DNA from: Nitrosopumilus sp.
GTDB lineage: Archaea; Thermoproteota; Nitrososphaeria; Nitrososphaerales; Nitrosopumilaceae
Length of the DNA: 64,000 nt
Assembly: GCA_029862745.1 (NCBI GenBank)
Contig: JAOTWS010000002.1
Location: forward strand, 62,001 to 126,000
Reading direction: 5' to 3'
The position numbers were made by a program, and so were the translations under genes. This document shows, piece by piece, positions 28,017 through 37,119 of this stretch (position 1 is the stretch's first letter; each line of letters opens with the position of its first letter). Below the pieces are notes generated by a model that was given only the letters and a program-made list of their open reading frames with translations, searched no databases and was not told the DNA's origin.

Positions 28017-29462
28017 ATGAAAAAGGAATTATCCTTTGCATTAAACTATGCATTAAACAAAGGATTCCAAATTCATCCAGATGCTTTTAAAATATTAGAA
28101 AATGTAGATGTAAAAAAATTAGAGAGGATAATAAAGGAAATAGTAAGACAGAAAACAAAACAAAAACTATTTCAGATTAACCAGGATGATTTAGAGACTT
28201 ATCTCGGAATTAAGGAGGACTTGACACTTCAAAATGAAATCAAAGTGATATTTGAACCAACCAACAAGATAACATCAGGTGAAGGAGTTAAAGGTTATAA
28301 TGCTTTATTTTCAAGTCGTTTTAACAAACTTAAACGAATTATTTCAGATAGACCAGAATCAAGATTATTGAAATCTGCAGCATTAGTTAAAACTACAAAA
28401 AATGATGATGATGTTTATGTATGTGGTCTTGTATCAGTCAGAAGTACTGAAAGAAATATCACAAAATTGGTTCTTGAGGACCCTTCAGGCTCATTTGAAG
28501 GAATTGTTTTTGATAATGAGCTGCAAAAGACTGCAGGAACTCTTCTAATTGATCAATTTGTAATGGCAAGAGTAGGTTTAGCAAAGAATTCAGGATATAT
28601 AATCAAAGATTTGATCTTGCCAGATATTCCAGAACAGGTCAAAAACAAATCAGAGACTGAAGCATACGCAGTATTTCTTTCAGATTTGCATATTGGAAGT
28701 AAATATTTCATGGAGGAGGAGTTTGCAGAGTTTATTTCATGGATATCTAGTCCTGATCCAACTGCTAGAAAAATTCGTTTTGTCCTAATTGGTGGAGATG
28801 TAGTTGATGGGGTTGGAATTTATCCAAATCAGAATAAAGAATTGATTTGTTTAACCATTCAAGAGCAATTAAAAAAGGTAGAGGATTTGATTGATAAAAT
28901 TCCAAAAAATATAAAGATTGTCATTATGCCTGGAAACCACGATCCTGGAAGAAGGGCATTGCCACAACCTGCTATACCAAAAAAATACAATTCAGGTTTA
29001 TGGGATAGAGAGAATGTGATAATGGTTGGAAATCCTGCGGTAGTCTCATTGAATGGTGTAAGAGTAATGATGTTTCATGGACAAAGTATTGATGATATAG
29101 TAAAAACCACACCTGGATTAAGTTATGATAAACCAACAAATGTTATGAAACACCTTCTTAGAGCAAGACATTTGAGTCCAATTTATGGCAGTCAGACACC
29201 AATAGCACCTGAAATAGAGGATTTTTTAGTTATTGAGGATATTCCAGATATTTTTCATGTTGGACATGTTCATAGAGCAGAGTTAGATATGTACAAAGGA
29301 ATTTTGTTAATTAATTCAGGTTCATGGCAAAAACAAACTCCTTTTCAGGCAAGTGTAGGAATGACTCCAAATCCAGGAATAGCTATTATGGTAAATTTGA
29401 AAACTTTCCAAGTTTTTCATGAAAATTATAGTTCAAACTTAAATAATATCTTGCAAAGTTAG
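28017..29462 (+). CDS. polB: DNA polymerase D small subunit (DP1)
   Basis: Small subunit of the replicative DNA polymerase D, carrying the 3'-5' exonuclease. An OB-fold region (about 130-200) precedes an Mre11-type phosphoesterase with DLHIGS at 223-228, GGDVVDG at 259-265, GNHD at 306-309, HGQS at 354-357 and GHVHR at 416-420, all metal ligands present. The N terminus has the helical PolD-interaction region (SFALNYALNKGFQIHPDA). The length of 481 is near the usual. Its 3' end overlaps the end of cdc6 by 24 bases on the other strand. Confidence 0.95.
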   Translation: MKKELSFALNYALNKGFQIHPDAFKILENVDVKKLERIIKEIVRQKTKQKLFQINQDDLETYLGIKEDLTLQNEIKVIFEPTNKITSGEGVKGYNALFSSRFNKLKRIISDRPESRLLKSAALVKTTKNDDDVYVCGLVSVRSTERNITKLVLEDPSGSFEGIVFDNELQKTAGTLLIDQFVMARVGLAKNSGYIIKDLILPDIPEQVKNKSETEAYAVFLSDLHIGSKYFMEEEFAEFISWISSPDPTARKIRFVLIGGDVVDGVGIYPNQNKELICLTIQEQLKKVEDLIDKIPKNIKIVIMPGNHDPGRRALPQPAIPKKYNSGLWDRENVIMVGNPAVVSLNGVRVMMFHGQSIDDIVKTTPGLSYDKPTNVMKHLLRARHLSPIYGSQTPIAPEIEDFLVIEDIPDIFHVGHVHRAELDMYKGILLINSGSWQKQTPFQASVGMTPNPGIAIMVNLKTFQVFHENYSSNLNNILQS

Positions 29463-30647
29463 CTCGTTTTTGAAGGATTTTTTTATCATTTCAGATGAGA
29501 CCGTAAGTTTGTATTTTTTAGTTCTACCATGTATTCCTTGATGGATAATTCGTCCGGAAATAATTCCAGACATTTCAATTTCACTTAGCATTTGTGTGAC
29601 TCTTCTTTGAGTAAGTTCATTGCGTCCTACTATTTTACAGAGATTTTTGTATGATGAATAAATCTCTCCTGTAGATGATCCATTTGCTTTCATTATTGCA
29701 ATAATCACTAATTTTTCATGAAGTGGGTATGATTTTAGGGATGTTTCCTCTTTATTTTCCTCAATTTTTTGAGTTGCTTCTCTAACATGCTCAATTGTAA
29801 CCTTGTCAGATTGTTGTCTTTCTGCAATTTCACCAGCAACGCGAATCAAATCGATTGCTCTACGAGCATCGCCATGTTCTCCCCCTGCAAGGGCTGCACA
29901 TAGATTTAAAGCTGGTTCTTCAACTGAGTTCTCTATAAATGAATCATGAATTCTTTCTTCAAGAATTTTTTTGATTTGTTCTACATTATAATTTGTAAAT
30001 ACAATCTCTTCTTCACCAAGACTACTGATTACCCTAGGATCAAGTTTTTCTTTGAATGTTAAATCATTTGAAATTCCTACCAAAGTCAAAGATCCTTGTT
30101 TTAGACGTTCATTTGCTCTCGTAAATTGATATAAAATATCTTTACCTGTTTTCGCTATTAATTGGGCAAGATAATCAATCTCATCAATTACAAAAATGGC
30201 ATTAAGTTTGTCTTCATCAATTTTATTTAGTAGTCTCTTAAAGACCTCACTTGTTGCCAAACCTGTTGAGGGTAATTCCTTTTCAGTCAGGTTTAGTTGC
30301 CTGCCTAGATTAACAAGTAAACCATATAGTGTTGTTTCGTCTTTTGAGTTAGAATATATTAATTTAATTGGAAAATTAGTTTTTTCAACTCTTTCTTGGA
30401 TTTTTGAAAGTACTTTTTTAACTACTAATGTTTTACCTGTCCCAGGTTTTCCATAAACTAGAAGATTAGAAGGTCTAGATTGTTTTAGTATTGGTAATAA
30501 GGATTGTGTGACTTGTTCTTGTTCAGAATTTCTATGTAGAATGGTATTTGGAATGTATGTGAAATGAAGAATGTCTCTGTTTTTTATTATAGATTTTCCA
30601 GATTCTGCTGCATCAAGCATTCTTTCAATAGGATCAGACATACTCAC
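29439..30647 (-). CDS. cdc6: Orc1/Cdc6 replication initiator
   Basis: AAA+ ATPase that binds the origin and recruits MCM. Walker A GKPGTGKT is at 66-73, Walker B IFVIDEID at 151-158, GEEEIVFTNYN near 213-223 precedes the lid, and EHGDARRAIDLIRVAGE near 256-272 is the sensor-2 helix. A C-terminal winged helix (about 305-400) includes RNELTQRRVTQMLSEIEMSG, which contacts origin boxes. The length of 402 is typical. The gene faces away from the intergenic region holding the ORB-type repeats, the usual arrangement for an archaeal origin. Confidence 0.95.
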   Translation of the reverse strand: MSMSDPIERMLDAAESGKSIIKNRDILHFTYIPNTILHRNSEQEQVTQSLLPILKQSRPSNLLVYGKPGTGKTLVVKKVLSKIQERVEKTNFPIKLIYSNSKDETTLYGLLVNLGRQLNLTEKELPSTGLATSEVFKRLLNKIDEDKLNAIFVIDEIDYLAQLIAKTGKDILYQFTRANERLKQGSLTLVGISNDLTFKEKLDPRVISSLGEEEIVFTNYNVEQIKKILEERIHDSFIENSVEEPALNLCAALAGGEHGDARRAIDLIRVAGEIAERQQSDKVTIEHVREATQKIEENKEETSLKSYPLHEKLVIIAIMKANGSSTGEIYSSYKNLCKIVGRNELTQRRVTQMLSEIEMSGIISGRIIHQGIHGRTKKYKLTVSSEMIKKSFKNELTLQDII

Positions 30648-30689
30648 ACACCCTCATTTCCTACCAATGTTATCATATTCATATCTGAA

Positions 30690-30786
30690 TTATGAGGGTA
30701 TAGTATAGAATAGTAATTGTAGTTTAGTTTGTAATTAATTATTTTTAGTTAGTTTTAGATTTCTAAAAAAAAATAAATAAAAAAAG
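30690..30786. other. AT-rich stretch, candidate duplex-unwinding element
   Basis: This stretch is almost entirely A and T, with long A and T runs (for example TTAATTATTTTTAGTTAGTTT and an A9 run). It lies between an inverted ORB-like copy at 30790-30812 and the cdc6 start, and a weaker ORB-like element on the other strand near 30645-30666. Position and composition suit strand opening, but it also contains the cdc6 promoter. Confidence 0.45.
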
Positions 30787-30789
30787 ACA

Positions 30790-30812
30790 GAGTGGAAATA
30801 TTGGTGTGTGGG
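30790..30812 (+). repeat. ORB-like element, plus orientation (degenerate)
   Basis: The first ten bases GAGTGGAAAT are identical to the core of the two ORB repeats read on the opposite strand, and a G/T-rich tail (GGTGTGTGGG) replaces their AAAGGG tail. It is inverted relative to the other two and borders the AT-rich stretch. Confidence 0.5.
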
Positions 30813-30876
30813 TAAATCTAGTTTTTTGAGTTAACGTTTTTGTTAATGGGATGTTAAGAAATTTCAAAAAAAGCCT

Positions 30877-30907
30877 ATTTTGACCCTTTCATTTCCACTC
30901 CAGGCGT
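30877..30907 (-). repeat. Origin recognition box repeat 1
   Basis: The first of two identical 31-bp direct repeats. On the minus strand it contains GGAGTGGAAATGAAAGGG, which I recognise as close to the archaeal ORB consensus bound by Orc1/Cdc6 (C-C-A-G-T-G-G-A-A-A-C-G-A-A-A-G-G-G). The repeat units start 62 bases apart. Confidence 0.75.
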
Positions 30908-30916
30908 TAAGATTGA

Positions 30917-31104
30917 TGTTAACAGTGTTAATACCTTTATTTTGACCCTTTCATTTCCACTCCAGGCGTAAAAGTAATCTATCTTAGAATGTTTAATGAT
31001 AAACCTGTGTTAATAACAAAAAATAGGTCAGGCGTGGCTTACGCAGTCAATGTTAACAAACTATTTTGTTAACAAACATGATCGGATCTATTGAACTGTT
31101 AACA
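30917..31104. promoter_or_regulatory. Cluster of four TGTTAACA palindromes
   Basis: The 8-bp palindrome TGTTAACA occurs at 30917-30924, 31051-31058, 31067-31074 and 31097-31104. The middle two form a larger inverted repeat with 10-base arms (31051-31060 and 31065-31074) around CTAT. Related GTTAAC sequences occur near 30832. The dyad symmetry suggests binding of a dimeric protein, possibly the winged-helix protein encoded just downstream. Confidence 0.55.
30939..30969 (-). repeat. Origin recognition box repeat 2
   Basis: Second identical 31-bp copy, same orientation as the first, separated by 31 bases. Sequence identity extends from ATTTTGACCC to CCAGGCGT on the plus strand. A truncated CAGGCGT also occurs near 31030, without the rest of the box. 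Confidence 0.75.
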
Positions 31105-31122
31105 TCTGACTTTGTAGATCCG
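31083..31122. promoter_or_regulatory. Inverted repeat before the 31127 gene
   Basis: CGGATCTA at 31083-31090 is perfectly complementary to TAGATCCG at 31115-31122, with 24 bases between that include a TGTTAACA palindrome. It ends four bases before the ATG at 31127, a place suited to an operator or a 5' structure controlling that gene. Confidence 0.5.
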
Positions 31123-31126
31123 ACCG

Positions 31127-31516
31127 ATGGCCAAAAAACGTATTAGAATAGGTATGGAGGATGCAGACGGTGCACGTTATGATATTAAACTAGAAGGCAA
31201 TGTGACCAGAGAAAAAGTCCTTAAAATATTTGAGATGATGGATTTGATGAATATTGAAGAAGATTTACCAGAAACAATTAATATGGACTCAATTGGCTCT
31301 AAAATTTGGTATATTGTGGATAAATTTTTCCCAATGGGCAAATTTACATCCACAAATATTCTTGAAAAATATGAAGATGAATTTAATGAACCTGTAAAAC
31401 TAAGTATAATTTCTACATATTTGTCTAGATTTTCTTCAAAAGGTAGGGTGGATAGAATTAGGACAGGTCGTGAATGGACTTACCAAACCATTAAAATTGG
31501 CCAAAATCAACATTAA
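31127..31516 (+). CDS. Origin-adjacent winged-helix-like protein
   Basis: The 129-residue product has a basic start (AKKRIRIG), a short strand-helix region (DADGARYDIKLEGN, then REKVLKIFEMMD) and a C-terminal part at about 55-125 that looks like a winged helix: SKIWYIVDKFF, TSTNILEKYEDEFN, KLSIISTYLSRFSSKG, then a wing RVDRIRTGREWTYQ. I do not recognise a named family. Its promoter region is the origin itself, with TGTTAACA palindromes, so it may bind them and be self-regulated. That link is inference. Confidence 0.7.
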   Translation: MAKKRIRIGMEDADGARYDIKLEGNVTREKVLKIFEMMDLMNIEEDLPETINMDSIGSKIWYIVDKFFPMGKFTSTNILEKYEDEFNEPVKLSIISTYLSRFSSKGRVDRIRTGREWTYQTIKIGQNQH

Positions 31517-31805: not shown

Positions 31806-32411
31806 TTATGTGATTGCTGGGTTTAATTCACTTTGTTCTATTTTTGCTATCCCTTTTTTGGTAATTGAATAAGTATATGGCTTAGTTTCAGTATTTCTTT
31901 GTACATATCCATCTTCAAATAACTTCTTCATTAATCTTGAAGTATGTTCCCTACTACGTTTTAATGTGATTTGTATATCACGTGATGTCATAGTTTTGTT
32001 TGTGATTAAATGCAACACATAATCTATTGGATTTATGTGATTTGGAGGAGGAACGCTAGGCAGAGAAACAGGTTTTTCATGAATAACTTCAGGTTTGTTA
32101 GTGTTTTCACTCTTATTTTCCTGAACTTCATTCCTTGCTAATTTTTCTAAGAACTGCTTTAGTTCTAGATTAGGATCTTCTATTTTTTGCTCATTTTCTT
32201 GTATTTCTAATGCATCTAGGCGTATTTTCATATCAATTAACTGTTTTTCATAATACTCTAGACGTTCAGATTGTGATGCATCATAGATTTCGCCTCTAGG
32301 CTTTACAAATGGACGTACTTTATAGTATGAATACAACCCTACTAATCCAATTAAAAATGCCAAAATCACACCTAAAATTACTTCAGGTTCAGGAATTTCT
32401 ATTAACATCAC
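31806..32411 (-). CDS. Membrane-anchored winged-helix protein with coiled coil
   Basis: The 201-residue product has one transmembrane helix at about 10-29 (EVILGVILAFLIGLVGLYSYY), then positive residues (KVRPFVKPRGE) placing the rest in the cytoplasm. A coiled coil spans about 45-100. A Pro-rich linker (VSLPSVPPPNHINPID) leads to a winged helix at about 128-195 (TSRDIQITLKRSREHTSRLMKKLFEDGYV, then a wing TKPYTYSITKKG). The layout suggests a DNA-binding protein held at the membrane next to the origin. No family name recognised. The upstream region holds TGTGAT repeats. Confidence 0.75.
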   Translation of the reverse strand: MMLIEIPEPEVILGVILAFLIGLVGLYSYYKVRPFVKPRGEIYDASQSERLEYYEKQLIDMKIRLDALEIQENEQKIEDPNLELKQFLEKLARNEVQENKSENTNKPEVIHEKPVSLPSVPPPNHINPIDYVLHLITNKTMTSRDIQITLKRSREHTSRLMKKLFEDGYVQRNTETKPYTYSITKKGIAKIEQSELNPAIT

Positions 32412-32551
32412 AACTTTTACGCCTAAATTGTGATTTATTGTGATTGAACAATATTATTTCACACTTTGGATTGACAAACTCACACATACAATCACAATTA
32501 TTATCACACCTAATTCAACTTTGTACTTAATTTACTCACACATACATCACA
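32407..32551. promoter_or_regulatory. TGTGAT/ATCACA repeat cluster
   Basis: TGTGAT occurs at 32429-32434 and 32439-32444, exactly one helical turn apart, and its complement ATCACA at 32407-32412, 32491-32496, 32503-32508 and 32546-32551. The 13-base sequence ACTCACACATACA is also repeated at 32478-32490 and 32534-32546. These sit in the upstream region of the membrane winged-helix gene and suit binding of a cooperative regulator. The ATCACA hexamer recurs in the next gene, so composition contributes. Confidence 0.5.
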
Positions 32552-32909
32552 TATTACATGCACGACGAACAAGCTTATCAATCACACTAATGACTTCATC
32601 TTCTCTTTCAGGAAATATATCACTCTCATTAATCACACTAATTTGTTCGGAAAGTTTGGATATCACATCTATATCATCAGGTAAAAGTATGCCTAAACCA
32701 CGTAAAAGTATGATTGAGTAATACAATCCAATTAATTTCTCTCTAGATTGTTTAACTTGCCTGTAATAGGCACCTTTTGTTATAGAAAATTTAGATTCTA
32801 AAAGATCTTTTTGATTTAAAATAATTTCAATTTGTCGCTCCGTAAACAGAGATTTTTTGATAATTTTACTAATAATATTATTAAATTTGGATTGTTCAAT
32901 ATCGTTCAT
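32547..32909 (-). CDS. Hypothetical helical protein near the origin
   Basis: The open frame begins at ATG 32972, but ATG 32909 is preferred because a TATA-like CTTTAAAG at 32946-32953 lies at a suitable distance and would otherwise fall inside the gene. The 120-residue protein is mostly helical: IEQSKFNNIISKIIKK, then TERQIEIILNQKDLLESKF and SREKLIGLYYSIILLRGLG. The segment TKGAYYRQVKQSREK may be a recognition helix of a helix-turn-helix, but this is weak. No family recognised. Confidence 0.6.
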   Translation of the reverse strand: MNDIEQSKFNNIISKIIKKSLFTERQIEIILNQKDLLESKFSITKGAYYRQVKQSREKLIGLYYSIILLRGLGILLPDDIDVISKLSEQISVINESDIFPEREDEVISVIDKLVRRACNM

Positions 32910-32945
32910 AGCTATACAAATCTGTATATCGGTATTCCAATTAAA

Positions 32946-32953
32946 CTTTAAAG
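32946..32953. promoter_or_regulatory. Palindromic TATA element shared by divergent genes
   Basis: CTTTAAAG is its own reverse complement. Its centre is about 25 bases before the ATG of GGGP synthase (32975, plus), right for a leaderless transcript, and about 40 bases before the preferred start of the minus-strand gene (32909). Confidence 0.45.
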
Positions 32954-32974
32954 AGCCATGTACAAATTTCATTT

Positions 32975-33741: not shown

Positions 33742-36700
33742 ATGTCTGAAAACAATGCAATTTCCCGTATCAATGGTATTAAAATGCCTGATTATTATCG
33801 TGAATACTACTCAAATCTTTCATCTGATACATATTCTATCTTTGAGCATGCAGCAAAAGCAAAATCTAGTCTAGTTGATTCTTCAGGAATTATTGAGCCA
33901 AAAATTGCTTTTGATTTAGCAGACAGAGTTGCTAAAATGCACGAAATCGATATTGCTGAACCACTCAGAGAAATACTAAAAATAAATGGAAAAGAACTCT
34001 CAGCATTAATTCTTTCAAAAGAAATTGCATTAGGAAAATATTCATTACAAAATGCATCTTTAGAAGAGAAGTTAGATCTTGCAGTTCGTGTTGGGTTAGC
34101 AATTGTTACAGAAGGTGTCACGATTGCACCATTACAAGGAATTAATGAAGTCAAAATTAAGAAAAATAAAGACGGTACAGAATACCTTTCTGTTTCGATC
34201 GCAGGGCCTATGCGTTCAGCAGGAGGTACAGAATCTGCTGTAACAATGCTAATTGCAGATCATGTTAGAAAAATTGCTGGATTATCAAAATTTCAAGCTA
34301 ACTCTTTTGATGATGAAACAGGCAGATTTGTTGAAGAATTACGAATCTATGAAAGAGAAGCAAGTAGCTTTCAATTCCATATTTTAGATGAAGATATTGA
34401 ACGTGTCATATCTAATCTTCCTGTAGAACTAGATGGTGTGGATACTGATCCTTATGAGGTTGTAAATCACAAAGGTATGACTCGTATCAAAACTGATAGA
34501 GTTAGAGGAGGTGCATTACGTGTTTTAAATGATGGATTAATTGGACGCTCTAAAAAACTACTAAAAAGAATTGAATTATACAATCTTGATGGATGGGAGT
34601 GGCTTAATGATCTTAAAGGTGCAGTTCAAACTGGTGATAATCAAGAAGATGCTGCTGCTAAAAGAATGCGAGAAGTAATCACTGGCAGATCTGTTTTATC
34701 TATGCCTAACAAATTAGGAGGATTCCGATTAAGATATGGGAGAGCATGTAATACTGGTTTCGCGGCAGTTGGGATTCATCCTGTAATTGCTGAAATTCTT
34801 GATCATACTATAGTTGTAGGCACACAAATCAAAATAGATATTCCTGGAAAAGGTGCTACTGTTGCATTTGTAGATTCAATAGATACCCCAATTGTTCGTC
34901 TGAAAAACGGAGATGTAGTAAAAATTAAAGATGTAAAACATGGATTAGAAATCAAAAATGAAATTAAAAAAATACTCCATTTAGGCGATATATTGATTTC
35001 ATTTGGGGACTTTCTTGAAAATAATGCTCAACTTGTACCTTCGGGTTACGTTGAAGAATTTTGGATTGAGGAACTAAAACAAAAAATTCAAAAATACGAA
35101 CCTTATGACCAACATCTAAATCAATTTTTAAGAAAAATACCTACAATTGACGAAGCACTGAAAATCTCTCTTGACTTTCAAATTCCATTACATCCACACT
35201 ATCTGTATTACTGGGATTGTATTTCATCAGATGAACTTAACAAACTTTTAGAACCCAATAAGGTCAACTCTACATCGATAGAATATCCAATACAAATTAA
35301 ACAAATTCTTGAAGACTTGGGTGTTCCCCATAAAGTTAAAAATGAAATAATTATTCTTGAAGAACAAGAGGCAAAAATATTCTTTAACCTTTTATTCAGA
35401 CAAAAACCAATTATCACTGATTTATCAGTCCCAAAAATTTTAACACAAACATCTGGCATTAAAATAAATAATAAATTCTCAACCTCAATTGGGGTTAGAA
35501 TAGGAAGACCTGAAAAAGCAGCTGCCAGACAAATGAAACCTCCAACACATGTGTTATTTCCAATTAGTGATAAAGGTGGCCCTACTAGAGATCTTCTCAA
35601 GGCATCTAGAAATGAACATTTCTTTGCTGATATTTTTAATAGACACTGTAATCAGTGCAATCAACCTTCTATTGGTATAAAATGTTCCATTTGTGGTACA
35701 AAAACGACAATTACTTACAGATGTACAAATTGCAGAGATGATCTAATTGAGCCATTCTGTCATAAATGTAAACGTAAAGCACCAACTCATTCACATAAAG
35801 AATTTCCATTAAAAAAAAGATTACTTTTAGCTCAAGAAAAAATGGGGCTTCGTGCAAAAGAACCATACAAAGGAGTCAAAGAATTAATCAACCAAGATAA
35901 AATTGCTGAACCTCTTGAAAAGGGACTTGCACGCCAAAACTTTGGACTAACAACATTCAAAGATGGAACTGTTAGATTTGATGCAACAAATTCCCCACTA
36001 ACTCATTTCAAACCATCATGGATAGGAACCTCTATTAAAAAATTAAAACAACTTGGATATTCTTATGATATTGATGGAAAACCTCTTGAGCACATGGATC
36101 AGATCATTGAGATTCGTATGCAAGATGTGATAATACCATATGAAAGTGGAAATTATCTAGTATCTACTTGTAAATACATAGATGTTCTTTTAGAAAAATT
36201 TTATGGTCACTCTTCATTTTATAATGTTCAAAACTCTAAAGATCTAATTGGACATCTAATAATTGGTTTAGCGCCACATACTTCTGTTGGAATAGTTGGA
36301 CGAATAATTGGATTTACAGAAACACATGTTTGTTTTGCAACACCTAATTGGCATTCTGCAAAAAGACGAGATGCTGATGGTGATGCTGATTCAATCATGC
36401 TTTTAATGGATAGTCTTCTCAATTTCTCAAGACAATTCCTTTCCGATAGAATAGGTGGATTAATGGATGCACCATTACTTATACAACCACTTGTTTTACC
36501 ACATGAATCTCAACCACAAGCTCATAACCTTGAAGTTACAAAATACCTCTCATTAGAATTCTTTGAATCTACACTCACTAAGATTAAAGCATCAAATGTT
36601 TTATCTGTTGAAATTATCAAAACACGACTTGAAACTGAAAGACAATTCTATGACTACTTTTTCACACATCCAACTTCATCTTTGACCGCTTCAAAATCAC

Positions 36701-37119
36701 GTAGTGCATATTCAACGCTTGGTTCTATGCTTGATAAATTTGATATGCAAGTAAAAAATGCTGAATTAATTAATGCAGTAAACACTTCCGAGATTGTTTC
36801 AAATGTTATCTCAACTCATCTTGTTCCAGACATTATGGGAAATCTCAGAGCATATGCAAGACAGAACTTCAGGTGTACTGGTTGTGGAAAATCATTTCGT
36901 CGAATACCTCTTATCCAAACTTGTTATTGTGGTCATAAATTAATTCCTACAATTACAAGAGGCTCTGTTGAAAAATATCTTAAACTTGCAAAAAGACTTG
37001 TAGAGAAATATAATGTAGGAGAATATCAAAAAGGAAGAATCCATGCTTTGTCAGATGAAATTGAATTAGTATTTGGTAAGAGTAAAGGAGATCAATCACT
37101 TCTTACTGATTATGACTAA
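33742..37119 (+). CDS. polC: DNA polymerase D large subunit (DP2)
   Basis: Catalytic subunit of replicative polymerase D, with a double-psi beta-barrel active site like RNA polymerases. The 1125 residues include SIAGPMRSAGGTESA near 152-166, a first zinc module around 635-680 (CNQCNQPSIGIKCSICG, then CTNCRDDLIEPFCHKC), the catalytic Asp-rich loop RRDADGDADS near 874-883 and a C-terminal zinc module (CTGCGKSFRRIP, then CYCGHK) near 1045-1073. The length is close to normal and no intein is present, although this gene often carries one in other archaea. It pairs with DP1 at 28017. Confidence 0.96.
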   Translation: MSENNAISRINGIKMPDYYREYYSNLSSDTYSIFEHAAKAKSSLVDSSGIIEPKIAFDLADRVAKMHEIDIAEPLREILKINGKELSALILSKEIALGKYSLQNASLEEKLDLAVRVGLAIVTEGVTIAPLQGINEVKIKKNKDGTEYLSVSIAGPMRSAGGTESAVTMLIADHVRKIAGLSKFQANSFDDETGRFVEELRIYEREASSFQFHILDEDIERVISNLPVELDGVDTDPYEVVNHKGMTRIKTDRVRGGALRVLNDGLIGRSKKLLKRIELYNLDGWEWLNDLKGAVQTGDNQEDAAAKRMREVITGRSVLSMPNKLGGFRLRYGRACNTGFAAVGIHPVIAEILDHTIVVGTQIKIDIPGKGATVAFVDSIDTPIVRLKNGDVVKIKDVKHGLEIKNEIKKILHLGDILISFGDFLENNAQLVPSGYVEEFWIEELKQKIQKYEPYDQHLNQFLRKIPTIDEALKISLDFQIPLHPHYLYYWDCISSDELNKLLEPNKVNSTSIEYPIQIKQILEDLGVPHKVKNEIIILEEQEAKIFFNLLFRQKPIITDLSVPKILTQTSGIKINNKFSTSIGVRIGRPEKAAARQMKPPTHVLFPISDKGGPTRDLLKASRNEHFFADIFNRHCNQCNQPSIGIKCSICGTKTTITYRCTNCRDDLIEPFCHKCKRKAPTHSHKEFPLKKRLLLAQEKMGLRAKEPYKGVKELINQDKIAEPLEKGLARQNFGLTTFKDGTVRFDATNSPLTHFKPSWIGTSIKKLKQLGYSYDIDGKPLEHMDQIIEIRMQDVIIPYESGNYLVSTCKYIDVLLEKFYGHSSFYNVQNSKDLIGHLIIGLAPHTSVGIVGRIIGFTETHVCFATPNWHSAKRRDADGDADSIMLLMDSLLNFSRQFLSDRIGGLMDAPLLIQPLVLPHESQPQAHNLEVTKYLSLEFFESTLTKIKASNVLSVEIIKTRLETERQFYDYFFTHPTSSLTASKSRSAYSTLGSMLDKFDMQVKNAELINAVNTSEIVSNVISTHLVPDIMGNLRAYARQNFRCTGCGKSFRRIPLIQTCYCGHKLIPTITRGSVEKYLKLAKRLVEKYNVGEYQKGRIHALSDEIELVFGKSKGDQSLLTDYD

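Follow-up and report, generated by a model that had tools for sequence, protein, structure and literature searches.

Archaeal origins of the Orc1/Cdc6-ORB type, such as Pyrococcus oriC, combine direct and inverted ORBs, an AT-rich tract, an adjacent cdc6 gene, and a skew extremum. According to papers that cite the mapping work, just one origin has been mapped in Nitrosopumilus maritimus (Pelve et al. 2013, as cited in PMC4010727; PMC5333045), and the origin of Ca. Nitrosocaldus cavascurensis has been placed by its ORB repeats and cdc, by analogy with N. maritimus (PMC5797428). The locus considered here, from Nitrosopumilus sp., shares these features and has one cdc6 gene. Unlike the origins described in the literature searched, it also contains an interleaved array of TGTKAAC sites and a conserved, divergently transcribed winged-helix gene, here called wHTH1.

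A second motif between ORBs is known from Sulfolobus, in which the protein UBP binds the ucm element between ORBs and contacts MCM (PMC12141716). A ucm/UBP element is recognised by a motif that is needed for firing and a protein that contacts MCM; UBP itself has a strand-swapped beta-hairpin saddle fold, contacts DNA through beta-hairpins, and has more than 300 genomic sites (PMC12141716). The Nitrosopumilus locus resembles this system in having a second motif between its ORBs, which is proposed to recruit a small DNA-binding protein other than the initiator. However, ucm is one site and the array several, and the published ucm oligonucleotide, when compared with the array, lacks GTTAAC. In addition, the density of sites found in the array was seen, in the DNA examined, at the origin only, in contrast to the genome-wide distribution of UBP sites, and wHTH1 is modelled as a winged helix rather than a beta saddle. 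By fold and by site, then, wHTH1 is not UBP; we propose that it would work as UBP does at ucm without being homologous to it. WhiP, the winged-helix initiator of Sulfolobus oriC3, is also encoded beside an origin. Compared by description, though, WhiP stands in for Orc1/Cdc6-ORB, whereas wHTH1 accompanies an Orc1/Cdc6-ORB origin. Neither a second array nor a linked winged-helix gene is described in the literature searched, which dealt with the ORBs of ammonia-oxidising archaea and with origin-linked winged-helix proteins in Thaumarchaeota; the original N. maritimus mapping paper lay outside that search.

The reading favoured here, with a probability of roughly 0.6, is that positions 30642-31126 of the window (the whole 64,000-nucleotide stretch that was analysed) form an origin at which Cdc6 acts on the ORBs and the array is most likely partnered by wHTH1 as a second origin factor. 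The interval is a 0.48-kb gap adjoining the cdc6 gene and holding ORB boxes, an AT-rich tract, and GTTAAC sites. The features of the region are as follows.

28017-29462: Pol D subunit DP1 (Pfam)
29439-30647, minus strand: orc1/cdc6 initiator, single copy (Pfam and NCBIfam); likely ATG start at 30641
30642-30661, minus strand: ORB4, degenerate (GGAAATGAGGGTGTGTGAGT), just upstream of the cdc6 start (sequence; pattern in relatives)
30700-30789, unstranded: AT-rich tract, candidate unwinding element (AT content, genus alignment)
30790-30812, plus strand: ORB3, degenerate, inverted relative to ORB1 and ORB2 (sequence; conserved in the genus)
30830-30835, unstranded: GTTAAC site 1, between ORB2 and ORB3 (sequence)
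30876-30907, minus strand: ORB2 in a 32-bp perfect repeat, core 30883-30902
30918-30923, unstranded: GTTAAC site 2, between ORB1 and ORB2 (sequence)
30938-30969, minus strand: ORB1 in a 32-bp perfect repeat, core 30945-30964
31052-31073, unstranded: GTTAAC sites 3 and 4 (GTTAACAAACTATTTTGTTAAC), starting at 31052 and 31068, the most conserved block of the array (alignment)
31098-31103, unstranded: GTTAAC site 5, just before the wHTH1 gene (sequence)
31127-31516, plus strand: wHTH1, 129 aa, divergent from cdc6, candidate array binder (conservation, linkage, winged-helix model, motif covariation)
31806-32411, minus strand: wh2, a conserved winged-helix gene at the side of the origin, with a hydrophobic N-terminus (Pfam, conservation)
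33742-37119: Pol D subunit DP2 (Pfam)

Pfam and NCBIfam bear out the first-pass annotation in placing the region beside cdc6, which is present once in the 1.81-Mb genome. Some relatives (G009, G030, G035, G077, G081, and G124) also encode a second Cdc6-like protein, about 30% identical, at a distance from the origin and possibly within integrated elements. The same annotation had the origin flanked by both polymerase D genes. This holds in outline, since Pfam recognises DP1 and DP2, but the origin is separated from DP2 by four genes, one of them wHTH1. A 141-aa ORF at 32547-32972 of the window (minus strand) belongs to no Pfam family and is kept near the origin in several families.

The two direct repeats are identical over 32 bp, one more than first given, and 97% identical over 35 bp. 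Their minus strand reads TGGAGTGGAAATGAAAGGGT, with 3 mismatches to the common archaeal ORB motif TCCASTKGAAAYRAAGGGGT published with Ori-Finder 2 (PMC4164010). At the level of 3 or fewer mismatches, the ORB consensus matches the window at ORB1 and ORB2 only, where shuffled windows give an expectation of 0.02, so the proposed closeness to ORB is borne out. Within the 1.81-Mb genome, the 27-bp repeat core occurs at this locus alone when up to 3 mismatches are allowed; the 20-bp ORB pattern has one weaker stray match elsewhere. The degenerate inverted copy, ORB3, is present as proposed and strongly conserved in relatives, and the stretch that it borders is indeed AT-rich (82-88% at 30700-30799, in 50-bp steps). 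Two elements had gone unremarked, the GTTAAC array and ORB4. The latter is of the same subtype as ORB3 (GGTGTGTG) and inverted relative to it, and the pair brackets the AT-rich tract. Within this tract, a block at 30700-30740 (AACTAAAAATAATTAATTA... / AACTAAAAATAATTAATTACAAACTAAACTA) is almost unchanged in the genus alignment and might either serve as the promoter of cdc6 or belong to the unwinding element.

Related genomes, whose alignment the first-pass annotation had expected to reveal conserved repeats, do so. When the DNA upstream of cdc6 was extracted and aligned for 33 genomes of the same genus group, the cores of ORB1, ORB2, and inverted ORB3 were found in 32, with the direct TGGAAA cores 56-62 bp apart and the inverted core closer to cdc6; the exception is G022, in which no exact inverted core is present. 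In 29 genomes the distance from ORB2 to the inverted core is 92-107 bp; G025, G029, and G020 are spaced otherwise. The ORB4 pattern is present in 23 of the 33, at 149-155 bp from ORB3 where both match.

Nucleotide skew, computed from stretches of sequence at a resolution of tens of kb, is also consistent with an origin here. On the 257-kb contig that holds the window, cumulative GC skew has its peak at 107 kb, and its amplitude was reached by 26 of 5000 block shuffles; the peak is 14 kb away from the origin, an offset that counts against the assignment. For a complete relative (G007, 1563 kb), of which half was sampled in steps of 20 kb, cumulative A-T reaches its maximum close to the cdc6 end and its minimum near 780 kb, half a turn away. 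These turning points agree with the locus, and the skew did not place the origin elsewhere, the outcome that had been named in advance as telling against it.

The interval thus shows clustered ORBs, an adjacent orc1/cdc6 gene, an AT tract flanked by inverted ORBs, and a skew extremum, as archaeal ORB origins do. A different reading sees no origin here, only the conserved promoter region of two divergent genes; the gene pair is indeed divergent, and its conserved AT block is a possible promoter. That reading is nevertheless extremely improbable given the match to ORB, its uniqueness in the genome, the skew, and the one origin that the citing papers give for N. maritimus, and it is nearly certain that 30642-31126 is a chromosomal replication origin. 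The first-pass view of an Orc1/Cdc6-type origin is therefore sound, supported by the ORB match and its uniqueness, the relatives, the single cdc6, and the skew, but incomplete in that neither the array nor the linked winged-helix gene figures in it. As an origin, the locus belongs to a known kind and was to be expected, given the single origin reported for N. maritimus and the placement in Ca. Nitrosocaldus cavascurensis.

The array comprises five GTTAAC (TGTTAAC) sites in 274 bp, interleaved with the ORBs. In a count of all hexamers, made with no prior choice of word, TGTTAA ranks first in the origin interval, with 12 occurrences against 0.74 expected. Elsewhere on the 257-kb contig, GTTAAC was seen at most once in any 500-bp window; in a sample of 800 kb from G007, the next-best window holds three. 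Across the genus, sites fall at approximately -465, -435, -419, -285, and -197 from cdc6, and most are kept in nearly all members. Other families have the same word or TGTGAA/GTGAAC, with TGTGAAC arrays in place of TGTTAAC in some lineages.

The protein encoded across the gap from cdc6, wHTH1, has no family in NCBIfam. It scores 17.2 bits (E 0.0066) against Pfam Penicillinase_R (PF03965), below the gathering cut-off of 22.6, and a sequence search of solved structures gave no confident homologue, the best E being 0.04. An AlphaFold2 model predicts a winged helix at residues 56-121 (pLDDT about 90), preceded by a less certain beta-beta-alpha N-terminus. The structures that Foldseek matches to this model, MecI, TubR, and AspA among them, are generic winged helices, none with E of 0.001 or less, and for this reason the fold does not identify a function. 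With MecI/BlaI repressors (Penicillinase_R), wHTH1 shares the winged-helix fold and a weak similarity in its C-terminal half; in contrast to them, it has the additional N-terminal beta-beta-alpha part and is linked to a replication origin.

This linkage extends throughout the class. The gene was found in 118 of 120 genomes drawn from it, and in the 114 genomes with wHTH1 and cdc6 on one contig the two are divergent in 112 and, in 105 of these, no more than 700 bp apart (median 488). The only co-oriented cases belong to one family (f21: G070 and G067; L176 and L174/L194), in which wHTH1 is flipped to the cdc6 strand. More widely, 130 of 200 genomes sampled from the phylum have a homologue. Outside the class, gene coordinates for 33 genomes place wHTH1 divergent from cdc6 in 14 (13 within 0.9 kb, one at 3.4 kb) and not beside cdc6 in 19.

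Since the array lies within the divergent promoter region, with site 5 just before the wHTH1 start, and since the fold resembles that of repressors such as MecI, the GTTAAC sites might be an operator through which wHTH1 controls its own promoter and that of cdc6, with no role in replication, beside an otherwise ordinary ORB origin. Genomes in which the wHTH1 gene has moved bear on this reading. In four f2 genomes, the gene and cdc6 are about 2.9 kb apart, and all or nearly all GTTAAC sites are within about 500 bp of cdc6, leaving few or none at the wHTH1 gene. In G105 (L195, L196) the two genes are on different contigs; 3 kb at the wHTH1 gene contain no GTTAAC, and the cdc6 side retains both ORBs and TGTTAA words. 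Because the sites remain beside cdc6 when the gene moves, the array belongs with the ORBs, and a self-operator is rejected as the main explanation. The fixed spacing of sites between ORB1, ORB2, and ORB3 also argues against the operator reading, which we consider unlikely as a whole; the array may still control cdc6 alone.

A second question is which protein binds the array. At residue 94, which lies in its recognition helix, wHTH1 has Thr in lineages with TGTGAA arrays and one of Ile, Val, Leu, Met, or Ala in those with TGTTAA arrays. This rule holds in 37 of 39 genomes, the exceptions being G048 and G078, and no other wHTH1 or Cdc6 column scored does as well. Of 14 further genomes to which the rule was then applied, 13 follow it; the other, G173, which was aligned by eye, gives a tie from few sites. 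Beyond the class the rule holds less well: of 12 linked genomes, 7 conform, 4 go against it (e.g., G184, with Ala and 8 TGTGAA), and 1 gives a tie. On the Cdc6 tree there are only about 3 switches of motif type, which leaves an independent-pairs test without power, and for this reason no significance can be claimed for the covariation once phylogeny is corrected for.

Other candidate binders of the array are wh2, a nucleoid protein, and Cdc6. The gene for wh2, tail-to-tail with wHTH1, is conserved beside the origin throughout the class and in some genomes outside it, and it is still there in G105 after wHTH1 has left. However, the wh2 recognition helix, SREHTARLMKKL, is nearly invariant and hardly differs with the type of array, TGTTAA or TGTGAA. 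The best wh2 column scores 81%, compared with 29 of 31 for residue 94 of wHTH1 in the same genomes. The near constancy of this helix between motif types disfavours wh2 as the array binder. The best Cdc6 column, at 35 of 39, likewise falls short of residue 94. A binder other than wHTH1 therefore appears improbable. With its hydrophobic N-terminus, wh2 could have a different part, tethering the origin to the membrane.

In plasmid partition, arrays bound by small winged-helix proteins occur, and TubR and AspA are among the structure matches of wHTH1. The array could accordingly be read as a centromere-like partition site beside the origin, with wHTH1 as a segregation adaptor. Yet its sites lie in among the ORBs instead of to one side, the annotated neighbours yielded no recognised partition ATPase, and the structure matches in question are the generic ones noted above, so this reading is very unlikely.

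The favoured reading, with wHTH1 as the partner of the array, suggests the following mechanism. Orc1/Cdc6 made from the adjacent gene would bind the direct ORB1 and ORB2 and the inverted pair ORB3 and ORB4 round the AT-rich tract, and, by analogy with characterised archaeal origins, Cdc6 on the ORBs would load MCM. As a second origin factor with sequence specificity, wHTH1 would act in trans and occupy the TGTTAAC array between and beside the ORBs. We infer that this binding would affect initiation; the step concerned might be the positioning or release of MCM (by analogy with UBP), its activation, the control of Cdc6, repression, or segregation of the origin.

Little was found on the origins of ammonia-oxidising archaea in the literature searched, beyond mapping and prediction. 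For these organisms the locus now offers a concrete candidate protein, an array of sites, and a prediction of specificity that turns on a single residue, and the array sequence and one gene suffice for an in vitro test of the proposal. At a larger scale, there is perhaps an even chance that the uncharacterised wHTH1 family, found beside cdc6 throughout Nitrososphaeria and paired with it in further Thermoproteota families, is a second, sequence-specific origin-binding factor that acts on an origin-restricted TGTTAAC/TGTGAAC array co-evolving with its recognition helix, and would thus be the counterpart of UBP in divergent archaea.
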